Source of the DNA: Sinimarinibacterium arenosum
GTDB lineage: Bacteria > Pseudomonadota > Gammaproteobacteria > Nevskiales > Nevskiaceae
Length of the DNA: 64,000 nucleotides
Assembly (NCBI RefSeq): GCF_005047655.1
Contig: NZ_SUKF01000007.1
Span: 62,001-126,000, forward strand
Direction: 5' to 3'
The translations under genes were made by a program, and so were the position numbers. Under the pieces are notes generated by a model. That model made no database searches and had not been told where the DNA came from. It saw nothing but the letters and a program-made list of their open reading frames with translations. This document shows, one piece after another, positions 34,602-60,169 of this stretch. Each line of letters starts with the position of its first letter. The first letter of the stretch is position 1.

Positions 34602-35468
34602 TTACTCGACGATCGCTGGATGCGCCTGCGTCGGCCCGCCCAGCATCGGGCGATGCGACGGCGGCTGCTTGCCGTCGAGATCGGGCATGCCGTATTCCTC
34701 GGCCAGCTCCGCGCCGATCAGCACCTGACCGGACTTCTCCTGGCGCTTGGGATCGTTGTACAGCGCTGCGATCAGCTTGCCGGTGAATTCAGGCGTTTCG
34801 GCAATGTCCCAGAACCCGGCGTATTTCTCCGGTTCGGAATCCATCACGCGGCGCGTGCGGTCGGTGCGCAGCATGCCCATCCAGATTGACACGCTGGCGA
34901 CGTTGTACGGCTTGAAGTCGACCGCCATGTCCTTGGCAAACTTGTCGACGCCGACCTTCTGCGCGCCGTAGGCTGGGCCGTGCATGTAGCAGCTGGCGCC
35001 GAAGCTGGAGGTGAAGGCGATCAGGCCGTCCTTCTGCTCTGCCATCAACGGCGCGGCGTACCAGCTGGCGATGTAACCGGAGCGCAGGCCGACGTCGAGG
35101 ATGTCGACCAGATCGAGAGACTTCTTCCAGAACGGCCCTTTCTCGATCAATTGATCGTGAATCACCGTGGCGTTATTGACCAGGATATCGAGGTGGCCCT
35201 GCTCATCCTTGACCCGTTCGAACAGCGCTTTGACATCGGCATCGTTGGCATGGTCGCAGGCCACGGCAATGCCCTTGCCACCGGCGGCAGTCACCGCTTC
35301 GGCGGTGGCCGTGATCGTGCCCGGCAGCGGCGCGGCGCCTTCGGTCAGCGTACGACCGGTGACATACACGGTGGCGCCTTCCATGCCCAGTGCGATGGCA
35401 ATGCCCTTGCCGGCGCCGCGGGATGCGCCGGTGACGACGGCGACCTTGCCCTTGAGTGATCCGCTCAT
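34602..35468 (-). CDS. Short-chain dehydrogenase (DHRS1-like)
   Basis: A 288-residue SDR with TGASRGAGKGIA, VTGRT (an Arg that suggests NADP(H)), LVNNATVI and a YGAQK Tyr/Lys pair near residue 168. The catalytic Ser lies in FTSSFGAS. The active-site wording and the long C-terminal tail are like human DHRS1 and its bacterial relatives. It is the last gene of a leftward four-gene operon with fadD3, a 3beta/17beta-HSD-like SDR and a KstD-like flavoprotein, separated from fadD3 by 32 bases. A steroid or C/D-ring intermediate is the expected substrate. Confidence 0.78.
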   Translation of the reverse strand: MSGSLKGKVAVVTGASRGAGKGIAIALGMEGATVYVTGRTLTEGAAPLPGTITATAEAVTAAGGKGIAVACDHANDADVKALFERVKDEQGHLDILVNNATVIHDQLIEKGPFWKKSLDLVDILDVGLRSGYIASWYAAPLMAEQKDGLIAFTSSFGASCYMHGPAYGAQKVGVDKFAKDMAVDFKPYNVASVSIWMGMLRTDRTRRVMDSEPEKYAGFWDIAETPEFTGKLIAALYNDPKRQEKSGQVLIGAELAEEYGMPDLDGKQPPSHRPMLGGPTQAHPAIVE

Positions 35469-35500
35469 GTCTGACTCTCCTCGTTATTGGGTCGCGGCGC

Positions 35501-37057
35501 TCAAGCCGAGCGCTTGCGCAGCTCGAACTTGAGCACTTTGCCGGATGCGTTACTCGGCAGCGCATCAAGCACTTCGACGCTGCGCGGTACCTTGTAGTTG
35601 GCCATCTTGTCGCGGCACCAGGCGATGAATGCGCCGCTGTCCAGCGTCTGTCCGGGACGCAGCACGACGTAGGCTTTGCCGACTTCGCCCAGGCGCTCAT
35701 CCGGCACACCGACGACGGCGACCTGCGCAATCGCGGGATGTGCGGCGATCATGCGTTCTATCTCGGCGGGATAGCAGTTGAAGCCGCCGGTGATGTACAT
35801 GTCCTTCAGGCGGTCGGTGATGCGCAGGTAGCCGCGTTCGTCGAGCACGCCGACATCGCCGGTGTGCAACCAGCCGTCGGCGTCGATCGCCTTGGCGGTT
35901 TCCTCGGCGTCATCCAGATAACCCTGCATCACGTTGTAGCCGCGCACGACGACTTCGCCCGGCGTGTTTGGGGGCAGTGCGACGCCGTCCTCGCCAATGC
36001 ACTGGACTTCAATGCCGGGAATCGGCCGGCCACAGGTGCTGACGATGGTCTCGGCGCTGTCGTCGGGATCGCACAGCGACACGATGCCGCAGGTCTCGGT
36101 CAGGCCGTAGCCGGTCAGCACGATCTTGAAGCCCAGTTCGCTGCGGATACGCTCGACCAGGGCCGGCGCAACCGCCGCGGCTCCGGTGATCGTGGCGCGC
36201 AGCGACGACAGATCGCAGTCGGCGCGCTTGGGATCGTTCAGCAGGCTGATGAACAGCGTCGGCGGTCCCGGCAGCACCGAGACCTTTTCCGCGTCGATGC
36301 GCCGCATCACCGCAGCAGCGTCGAACACGGCATGCGGCATCACCGCACAGCCGGCGATCAGGCCGGCGAGCCAGCCGACCTTGTAGCCGAAGGCGTGAAA
36401 GAACGGATTGACCAGCAGGTAGCGGTCCTCGGGCGACAGGGACATCCGATCGGACCATTCGCGGATCACGCGCAGATTCTGCGCGTGCACGGTGATGACG
36501 CCCTTGGGTTGGCCGGTGGTGCCGGAGGTGAACATCACGTCCATGCGATCACTCGGCTCGACCGAGGCCGCACGTGCGCGTGCGGTGTCAGGCTCGACGC
36601 GCTCGGCGTGCTGCAGGAACCCGCTCCAGTCGCATTCGCCGGGCGCGGTTGCGCCGAGCACGACGAGGGTTTCCAGGGTCTGCGGTTGGTGCGGCGCCAG
36701 CAGCGCCGGGTAGTGCTGACCCAGAAAATTGCCGATACAGAACAATACGCGCGCGCGGCTGCGCTCCAGCACGTAGGCGGCTTCTTCGCCCCGCATGCGC
36801 GTGTTGATCGGCACCAGTGCCGCGCCGGCGCTATGCACGGCCAGCGCGGCGATCACCCACTCGACCGTATTCGGCGCCCAGATCGCTACGCAGTCGCCGC
36901 GCTGCACGCCGAGCGCAATCAGCGCCCGGGTGGCCTGCAAGCGCACGGCATCCAGCTGCGTGTAGCTGAGGGTGCTGCCGTCCTCGCCAATCAGCGCGGG
37001 ACGGTCGGCGTAGCGCGCGACCGATGCCGCAAATGCGCCAGGAACGGTATCAATCAT
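35501..37057 (-). CDS. fadD3: FadD3-like acyl-CoA synthetase (HIP:CoA ligase)
   Basis: A 518-residue AMP-forming acyl-CoA ligase. The P-loop TSGTTGQPKGV, the YGLTETCG motif, GWLHTGDVG and the C-terminal Lys in NASGKVLKF are all intact. Length and wording fit FadD3, which activates HIP, the C/D-ring propionate left after steroid A/B-ring removal. This opens C/D-ring degradation. Context supports this: ipdA, ipdB, ipdC, echA20, fadE30 and ipdF lie within 22 kb. The ATG at 37057 is chosen over a TTG at 37069. It lies 39 bases after the upstream SDR stop. Confidence 0.82.
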   Translation of the reverse strand: MIDTVPGAFAASVARYADRPALIGEDGSTLSYTQLDAVRLQATRALIALGVQRGDCVAIWAPNTVEWVIAALAVHSAGAALVPINTRMRGEEAAYVLERSRARVLFCIGNFLGQHYPALLAPHQPQTLETLVVLGATAPGECDWSGFLQHAERVEPDTARARAASVEPSDRMDVMFTSGTTGQPKGVITVHAQNLRVIREWSDRMSLSPEDRYLLVNPFFHAFGYKVGWLAGLIAGCAVMPHAVFDAAAVMRRIDAEKVSVLPGPPTLFISLLNDPKRADCDLSSLRATITGAAAVAPALVERIRSELGFKIVLTGYGLTETCGIVSLCDPDDSAETIVSTCGRPIPGIEVQCIGEDGVALPPNTPGEVVVRGYNVMQGYLDDAEETAKAIDADGWLHTGDVGVLDERGYLRITDRLKDMYITGGFNCYPAEIERMIAAHPAIAQVAVVGVPDERLGEVGKAYVVLRPGQTLDSGAFIAWCRDKMANYKVPRSVEVLDALPSNASGKVLKFELRKRSA

Positions 37058-58781: not shown

Positions 58782-58963
58782 ATGAAGTGGGCCGGGCCAA
58801 GCTCGGCTAGCGTAGGCGTCTAGAATTCGCGCCATACGCATTCCCATGCTGGCAGACGCCATCAGCGGCAGGGTCTGAACCCCTCGGCCGTCGCATGCCT
58901 TGGTCGCGATGAATCTTTCGTCAGCGGCTCACAGGTCGGCGCAGGGGCCGAGAGGACAACAGC

Positions 58964-60169
58964 ATGAATGAAGCAGTCATCGTATCGGTCGCACGGACCG
59001 GCATTGGCAAGGCATTTCGCGGCGCGTTCAACGATACCGAAGCGCCGGTGCTCGGCGGCCACGTGATCCGCGCGGCGGTCGAGCGCGCCGGGGTCGATCC
59101 GGCCGAGGTCGACGACGTCATCCTCGGCGCCGCAGCGCAGCAGGGCACGCAGGCCTACAACCTGGGCCGGCTCTGCGCCTATACCGCCGGCCTGCCGAAC
59201 TCGGTGTCCGGCATGACGCTGGACCGCCAGTGCTCTTCGGGCCTGATGAGCATTGCCATCGCCGCCAAGAACATCATGGTCGGCGAGCAGGATGTGGTCG
59301 TCGCCGGTGGCCTGGAATCGATTTCGCTGGTGCAGAACAAGCACAAGAACAGCTATCGCGCGGTGTCGCAGGCAGCGATCGCAGCCGAGCCGACCGCCTA
59401 CATCCCGATGATCGAAACTGCCGAGCTGGTGTCCCAGCGGTACGGCATTTCGCGCGCCGCGCAGGATGAATACTCGCTGCAGAGCCAGCAGCGCACCGCG
59501 GCGGCGCAGGCCGCCGGTGCCTTCAACGACGAAATCGCCCCGATCACGGTCGAACAGCAGCTGTTCGACAAGGAAGGCAATCCGACCGACCGCAAGACCG
59601 TCACGCTGGATCGTGACGAAGGCAATCGCCCGTCGACCACGCTGGAAAGCCTGGCGGCACTGAATCCGGTGTGGAAGAACGGCCAGTGGGTCAAGGAAGG
59701 CCAGTTCGTCACCGCCGGCAATGCCTCGCAGCTGTCGGACGGCGCCGCCGTGTCGGTGCTGATGAGCAAGGCCGAGGCGCAGCGTCGCGGCCTGAAGCCG
59801 CTGGGCACGTATCGCGGCGTTGCCGTCGCCGGCTGCAAGCCGGACGAAATGGGCATCGGTCCGGTGTTCGCGATTCCCAAGCTGCTCGCGCGTCACGGTC
59901 TCACCGTCGACGACATCGGTCTGTGGGAACTCAACGAAGCCTTCGCCTGCCAGGTGCTGTATTGCCGGGATCACCTGGGCATCGCCAACGACCGCCTGAA
60001 CGTCAATGGCGGCGCCATCTCGATCGGCCACCCGTTCGGCATGTCCGGTGCGCGCATGGTCGGCCATGCCCTGATCGAAGGTCGTCGTCGCGGCGTGAAA
60101 TATGCGGTGGTGACGATGTGCATCGGCGGCGGCATGGGTGCCGCGGGCCTGTTCGAAATCGGCGGCTGA
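58964..60169 (+). CDS. Acetyl-CoA C-acyltransferase (thiolase)
   Basis: A 401-residue thiolase. Cys90 in [10 protein letters not shown] is the nucleophile. [29 protein letters not shown] with the catalytic His and [16 protein letters not shown] with the second Cys are intact. A GAGAGGA ribosome site precedes the ATG. It is not FadA6, which lies elsewhere in the window, so it may serve a different chain-shortening step such as propionyl release. A strong hairpin follows. Confidence 0.88.

Follow-up and report, generated by a model that had tools for sequence, protein, structure and literature searches.

A probable tesB-scd steroid C/D-ring catabolic cluster in a Solimonas-like bacterium, with variable gene content between ipdB and ipdC

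Introduction

The last two steroid rings are opened by the activities of IpdF, IpdC, EchA20 and IpdAB, of which IpdC has been published as a FabK type (Crowe 2017, PMC5380842). In Comamonas testosteroni TA441 the corresponding cluster spans tesB to tesR, according to a reference title in PMC6678751, and its gene order is given as scdL1L2, N, K, Y, M1M2, F, E, C1C2, G, D, J (Horinouchi 2026, PMC13101464, Fig. 1 legend). The latter source states enzyme classes for ScdD, ScdN, ScdY, ScdE, ScdF, ScdG, ScdK and ScdC1C2, and presents ScdN as a hydratase in the beta-oxidation following C-ring cleavage (PMC13101464); elsewhere ScdN is placed after the desaturation of MOODA-CoA (PMC6678751). Another group of steroid enzymes consists of DUF35-bound aldolases acting on side chains, such as Sal-Shy (PMC11321319) and Atf1-ChsH4, where ChsH4 has DUF35 alone (PMC10398937). 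Here we describe the genes at positions 34602-60169 of a 64,000-nucleotide stretch of Sinimarinibacterium arenosum (the window), which very probably form a cluster of the tesB-scd kind, and we examine the slot between ipdB and ipdC, whose content varies among relatives.

Results and discussion

Composition and identity of the cluster

The genome has 4.54 Mb in 24 contigs and is 99% complete, the window being C22:62001-126000. Gene calling placed 25 genes within 34602-60169 (Table 1): a minus-strand left arm (34602-39492) with a short-chain dehydrogenase/reductase (SDR1), FadD3, a second one (SDR2) and a delta4-KSTD-like flavoprotein, and a plus-strand run that starts at 40192 and is interrupted by one minus-strand PF10118 gene.

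The adjacent ipdA and ipdB genes (43011..44713) gave the clearest matches. IpdA had the solved IpdA chain as its top match (7e-77, 262 bits) and IpdB the solved IpdB chain (4e-61, 210 bits), with glutaconate CoA-transferases as the next type in both cases (82.5 and 43 bits, respectively). A FadD3-type HIP-CoA ligase (FadD3/ScdA) was present above the cut-off of NF005801, and curated cut-offs were also exceeded for PRK07938, PRK07801, PRK07831 and, in the case of an SDR, PRK07791 (scores in Table 1). We take PRK07938, PRK07801 and PRK07831 to be the EchA20, FadA6 and IpdF types, respectively; only NF005801 itself carries a matching family name (FadD3 family) among these models. A sequence-only reading of the same DNA had placed steroid C/D-ring gene types inside 34602-60169, and its names hold for IpdA and IpdB (through the solved chains) and for FadD3, EchA20, FadA6 and IpdF (through scores above cut-off), while fadE30, fadE31 and fadE32 could not be resolved individually. 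None of IpdA, IpdB and EchA20 had its best match in an unrelated CoA-transferase or crotonase family. Its ipdC was recovered through the best family, a FabK type that agrees with the published IpdC (PMC5380842), at a score below the cut-off and together with gene position.

The window shares with TA441 the order IpdAB, ScdN, IpdC, EchA20, dehydrogenase pair, thiolase, SDR, dehydrogenase pair, IpdF, MaoC, thiolase, with insertions in the window, when family-assigned enzyme types are compared with the published gene list and not sequence against sequence; for ScdL1L2, ScdM1M2 and ScdJ the enzyme classes are those we presume. Found in the window but not in TA441 are the DUF35 and lipid-transfer pair, a thioesterase, the PF10118 protein and a CYP153-ferredoxin pair, and FadD3 adjoins the block in the window, whereas scdA of TA441 sits in the A/B-ring cluster. 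With the KstR2 regulon of Mycobacterium tuberculosis, whose gene content we assumed and whose proteins were compared through solved structures and family models, the window has in common the IpdA, IpdB, IpdC, IpdF, EchA20, FadA6 and FadD3 types and a dehydrogenase adjoining ipdF; its order is different, it has scdN, MaoC and scdJ types, and a KstR2-type regulator was not recognised. The block had been taken for a rearranged KstR2 regulon to which a MaoC hydratase, a second thiolase and a second dehydrogenase pair were added. Instead, its order follows the scd cluster of TA441, and these genes are thus standard parts, ScdD, ScdJ, ScdM1M2 and ScdC1C2 being regular in that cluster (PMC13101464).

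On the strength of its enzyme classes, the match of IpdAB and a conserved gene neighbourhood, the block is very probably a tesB-scd cluster for steroid C/D-ring catabolism in a Solimonas-like bacterium, with its reactions assigned by analogy with Mycobacterium, Rhodococcus and C. testosteroni. The extradiol dioxygenase would probably open the aromatised A ring, FadD3 would form the CoA ester of HIP (9,17-DOHNA), and what is left of ring B would be removed by one of the dehydrogenase pairs together with the MaoC hydratase, an SDR and a thiolase. IpdF and IpdC would prepare the remaining rings, EchA20 and IpdAB would hydrolytically open rings D and C, and the remainder would be converted to acetyl-, propionyl- and succinyl-CoA by the ScdN hydratase, thiolases and the dehydrogenase pair not used on ring B.

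Several results weigh against this assignment. The FabK-like family behind the IpdC call scored 211 bits (cut-off 453), and the sub-names of the acyl-CoA dehydrogenases, which form two pairs (49094-51465 and 55097-57430), were given by position, the small members of both pairs scoring 157 and 169 bits with the IpdE2 model, far under its cut-off of 450. None of the genes called at 34602-61429 was recognised as a regulator, KstR2 binding sites not being part of the search. Genes for the A and B rings were matched elsewhere in the genome, all below cut-off: a KstD-like gene (598 bits, cut-off 788), two HsaA-like genes (365 and 376 bits, cut-off 450) and a second HsaC-like gene (257 bits, cut-off 450). 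The window dioxygenase itself scored slightly higher with the BphC model (263 bits, cut-off 366) than with the HsaC model (252 bits, cut-off 450), below the cut-off in both. The KstD-like gene and one HsaA-like gene lie together at about C22:35-38 kb with a Rieske-type gene next to them; the second HsaA-like gene and the HsaC-like dioxygenase are at about C23:95-97 kb, where another Rieske-type gene is close by. In our reading the two Rieske-type genes are KshA-like candidates; the one that was searched had no NCBIfam match at 1e-30.

These scores, and the P450 and extradiol dioxygenase in the block, would also suit the breakdown of another polycyclic terpenoid, e.g. resin acids, whose clusters contain P450 and extradiol dioxygenase genes. 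We consider this highly improbable and rejected a cluster for resin acids or other terpenoids because of the genes present and their arrangement: the block combines IpdAB, EchA20, IpdC, IpdF and FadD3 types and arranges them as in a characterised steroid cluster, the genome has KstD- and HsaA-like genes elsewhere, and the P450 is a CYP153 that adjoins ipdA in just two of the 40 genomes in which ipdA was matched.

Distribution of the cluster

Cluster genes were found in 41 of the 58 genomes of the window's family, which includes Solimonas and Nevskia types among its named members. A strong ipdA match defined 40 of these carriers (39 near full length with at least 62% identity, the window counted, and a partial one of 58% in G002), and G027 was added for a contig with ipdB, the pair, ipdC and echA20 but without ipdA; weaker CoA-transferase matches (at most 34% identity, or short end fragments) were excluded. 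A scan of named genomes with IpdA gave at least 523 confirmed relatives, the best 80 of which were retained as named loci. The latter include Solimonas, Sinimarinibacterium, Fontimonas, Nevskia, Panacagrimonas and Hydrocarboniphaga, and also Pseudomonas, Azoarcus, Thauera, Marinobacterium, Cupriavidus, Ralstonia and others. Most of these 80 loci share one gene order around ipdA, the alphaproteobacterial ones deviating, and the dioxygenase was present in 72 of the 80 (one of the 8 misses begins at ipdA). We also compared 20-kb stretches from 20 genomes chosen among the 40 with ipdA, 13 with and 7 without window-type ipdA in a first grouping by identity (G009/L084 was later taken out of the window type by the IpdAB tree). 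The dioxygenase, IpdA, IpdB, IpdC, EchA20, the first dehydrogenase pair, FadA6 and the SDR were all present in 20 out of 20. Among the matches listed, the nearest named relatives by IpdA were Solimonas marina, S. terrae, S. soli and Sinimarinibacterium, which supports well the earlier proposal of steroid C/D-ring (HIP) degradation in a gammaproteobacterium.

Given this wide spread, and since Hydrocarboniphaga is already among the predicted steroid degraders (Bergstrand 2016, PMC4810484), the cluster adds another example to a known system, with a gene set already known. It adds Solimonas-type bacteria to the predicted steroid degraders, in line with the Hydrocarboniphaga prediction (PMC4810484).

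A 174-kb plasmid of Vibrio alfacsensis (NZ_CP140104.1, L165:11112-20808), from a fish-associated host, carries annotated genes in cluster order: VOC family, CoA-transferase, hypothetical, enoyl-CoA hydratase, nitronate monooxygenase, enoyl-CoA hydratase, two dehydrogenases, thiolase and SDR. Two other V. alfacsensis plasmid records were also matched by IpdA.

The slot between ipdB and ipdC

In the window the slot holds a DUF35 gene, a lipid-transfer gene of the thiolase superfamily (together, the pair) and an scdN-type crotonase gene (44710-47215), a set that the sequence-only reading had passed over, as it had the P450 and ferredoxin (40192-41896), the extradiol dioxygenase and the delta4-KSTD-like flavoprotein. 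Searches of the family (E <= 1e-60) recovered the crotonase in 28 of the 58 genomes and the lipid-transfer protein in 25, all of them cluster carriers. The best crotonase matches lay 0.8-2.7 kb after ipdA in all 28, and the lipid-transfer gene 1.2-1.5 kb after ipdA in 24 of the 25, the remaining one being G027, on the contig with ipdB and ipdC. Not counted were four weaker matches to the crotonase (44-48%), located elsewhere in three scdN-bearing genomes.

Every one of the 41 carriers had scdN, the pair or both at this place: 16 had scdN only, 13 the pair only and 12 both, window included, and none had neither (Fisher p 3.7e-4). Wherever both occurred, the lipid-transfer gene preceded scdN (12/12). 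Three close species differ in this respect, with scdN only at the locus in S. marina, both in S. terrae and the pair only in S. soli. Outside the 41, four further genomes of the order had the pair and no scdN at the locus, their genomes not having been searched for scdN as a whole. Inspection by eye of 14 pair-only stretches, which come from 10 genomes, revealed no further gene that was consistently added. On a tree of 84 rows (95 minus the duplicates L155, L158 and L161 and minus 8 without two usable proteins) the two traits change at least 9 and at least 8 times.

An exchange between scdN and the pair at the ipdB-ipdC slot is possibly new, as no description of it was found in the literature searched, subscription reviews being outside that scope. 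We tentatively suggest that the slot may be filled by either of two interchangeable routes through one and the same late step of HIP breakdown, that of the ScdN hydratase or an aldolytic one by a DUF35-bound lipid-transfer aldolase, switched many times beside an equally exchangeable ipdAB, though we rate this as rather unlikely. If it were true, ring catabolism would have an aldolytic variant like that of steroid side chains, and a functional exchange would mean that steroid ring catabolism ends by two solutions. The idea is directly testable, because the three close Solimonas species differ in slot content.

Two results speak against such an exchange. In tree-aware independent pairs the traits never changed in the same direction, yet the sign test was weak (median p 0.125). 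Moreover, outside the family, the best 80 named loci comprised 58 with scdN only, 10 with the pair only, 5 with both and 7 with neither gene at the slot; five of these 7 bear alphaproteobacterial names and two are named 'Proteobacteria bacterium', and three of them (L129, L150 and L152) are among the rows lost from the slot tree.

Nature and possible role of the DUF35 and lipid-transfer pair

The DUF35 gene adjoins the gene for the thiolase-superfamily protein (44710..46340), and the only family model that the latter passed was NF004715, a lipid-transfer model. Its alignment with SCP2 thiolase and BbsB shows Cys86 retained, Tyr295 at the position of the HDCF His and GEA in place of GHP. Cys86, Y295-D296 and G344-E345-A346 were invariant in 20 sequences, so that both catalytic His of thiolases are replaced and the degradative motif set (Cys, HDCF/NEAF, GHP), which we assumed and which is also visible in the aligned structures, is incomplete. 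The Tyr is shared with the genome's own other lipid-transfer protein, which lacks the Cys, and with four out of five divergent homologues from other loci, the fifth (L144) having Gln. The lipid-transfer protein was also modelled, but with a mean pLDDT of 56 the model was not of usable quality.

The pair is most likely a DUF35-bound retro-aldolase. Like Sal-Shy, Ltp2-ChsH2 and Atf1-ChsH4 it combines a thiolase-superfamily protein with a DUF35 protein, and its DUF35 protein resembles ChsH4 in having DUF35 only (PMC10398937); unlike these known steroid aldolases, it sits in a ring-degradation cluster. Against an aldolase stand the Cys retained at the nucleophile position of thiolases and the scores with solved structures, which were higher for SCP2 thiolase and BbsB (170 and 160 bits) than for the solved aldolase 6ok1 (104 bits).

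The same two points would fit a true thiolase for the last branched 3-ketoacyl-CoA, giving propionyl- and succinyl-CoA like BbsAB or SCP2 thiolase: Cys86 is invariant, and the nearest solved relatives by score are of SCP2-thiolase type 1 and benzoylsuccinyl-CoA thiolase. We doubt this reading because both His are replaced, as Tyr and GEA in 20/20 sequences, and the sole family model passed is of the lipid-transfer type; it seems distinctly unlikely.

As a retro-aldolase, the pair may act on a late ring intermediate and could there replace or bypass the ScdN branch, a possibility that we put forward as somewhat unlikely. There is, in our estimate, a nearly even chance that it serves sterol or bile-acid side-chain cleavage and is lodged in the cluster, the pattern with scdN being due to chance or history. 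Side chains are the substrates of the known DUF35-bound aldolases Ltp2-ChsH2, Sal-Shy and Atf1-ChsH4 (PMC11321319, PMC10398937), the tree-aware test of the slot pattern was weak, and Nonomuraea gerenzanensis (L163:19588-21176) has a pair with 44% (DUF35) and 68% (lipid-transfer) identity, within 20 kb of which there was otherwise only a 34% partial FadD3 match. On the other hand, within the family the pair gene is confined to carriers and to the ipdAB neighbourhood, G027 included, and no carrier has an empty slot.

A second, divergent DUF35/thiolase-superfamily pair (33% and 38%) was seen beside the ipdAB cluster of an uncultured betaproteobacterium (L144:6519 onward).

Apparent replacement of ipdAB

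The window IpdAB fell in a clade of 15 out of 49 rows examined (SH-aLRT 100). A single change accounts for window-type ipdAB on the IpdAB tree, whereas a tree built from four neighbouring proteins needs at least five, a difference that points to repeated replacement of ipdAB in place; the trees comprised 49 and 47 chosen rows, and several of their forks were weak. The other ipdAB type was present in S. variicoloris, which groups, with good support, among S. marina, S. terrae and S. soli. By eye, no link was apparent between ipdAB type and slot content.

The CYP153-ferredoxin pair and other genes

The P450 matched CYP153A7 (Table 1), its top match being 7ant (729 bits), labelled just cytochrome P450. 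The P450-ferredoxin pair adjoined ipdA only in the window genome and G043, and a P450 match at 1e-100 or better occurred somewhere in 31 of the 58 genomes, many of them without ipdA. Because of this rare adjacency and the related P450s elsewhere, the pair is probably a passenger, and CYP153 was rejected as a pathway step on the same two grounds.

Table 1. Genes of the cluster and its right flank, with window coordinates and the basis of each assignment (score pairs are score/cut-off).
Feature	Position	Strand	Basis
SDR oxidoreductase (SDR1)	34602..35468	-	adjoins cluster in many Solimonas-type relatives
FadD3/ScdA-type HIP-CoA ligase	35501..37057	-	NF005801 729 bits, cut-off 657
SDR oxidoreductase (SDR2)	37097..37867	-	family match
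3-ketosteroid delta4-(5alpha)-dehydrogenase-like flavoprotein	37918..39492	-	solved 4at0 2e-65; PRK07121.1-4 712/466 bits
CYP153-type cytochrome P450, probable passenger	40192..41445	+	CYP153A7 605.7 bits
2Fe-2S ferredoxin, probable P450 partner	41576..41896	+	PF00111 within longer open reading frame 41198-41896
Extradiol dioxygenase, HsaC/TesB/BphC type	42098..42988	+	solved 2zi8 4e-57
ipdA (scdL1)	43011..43913	+	solved IpdA chain; clade of 15/49 rows
ipdB (scdL2)	43916..44713	+	solved IpdB chain
Stand-alone DUF35 protein (zf-ChsH2 + OB_ChsH2_C)	44710..45156	+	Pfam
Lipid-transfer (aldolase-like) thiolase-superfamily protein	45153..46340	+	NF004715 697.7 bits, cut-off 424
scdN-type crotonase (enoyl-CoA hydratase)	46334..47215	+	PRK08290 441/280 bits; position
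ipdC (scdK)	47212..48291	+	FabK-like family below cut-off; position
echA20 type (scdY)	48302..49087	+	PRK07938 380/260 bits
Acyl-CoA dehydrogenase, first pair, large (scdM1-like by position)	49094..50260	+	family match; position
Acyl-CoA dehydrogenase, first pair, small (scdM2-like by position)	50407..51465	+	IpdE2 157 bits, cut-off 450
fadA6-type (scdF) thiolase	51480..52628	+	PRK07801 683/591 bits
SDR (scdE by position)	52691..53572	+	PRK07791 429/373 bits
Hotdog (4HBT) thioesterase-like protein	53623..54060	+	Pfam on longer open reading frame 53008-54060
PF10118 predicted metal-dependent hydrolase	54099..54938	-	Pfam
Acyl-CoA dehydrogenase, second pair, small (scdC-like by position)	55097..56227	+	IpdE2 169 bits, cut-off 450
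Acyl-CoA dehydrogenase, second pair, large (scdC-like by position)	56234..57430	+	family match; position
ipdF type (scdG)	57441..58232	+	PRK07831 427/336 bits
MaoC-type hydratase (scdD by position)	58326..58781	+	weak PaaZ 8.6e-12, HadB 1.8e-6, below cut-offs; position
Thiolase (scdJ by position)	58964..60169	+	PRK07108 572 bits, below cut-off 615
YCF48/BNR-repeat protein	60299..61429	+	Pfam
Large gene continuing beyond window end; candidate MMPL/RND-like transporter	61426..64000	+	read from sequence

The PF10118 gene inserted in the cluster (54099-54938) had no counterpart in the 20-kb stretches of the 20 relatives, and a second predicted metal-dependent hydrolase of this family lies at window 5289-6260. 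The left part of the window also contains a 737-residue protein with a lipoprotein-like start and without a Pfam match (1113-3326), and a fusion of an alpha/beta-hydrolase with a short-chain dehydrogenase (6247-8025).

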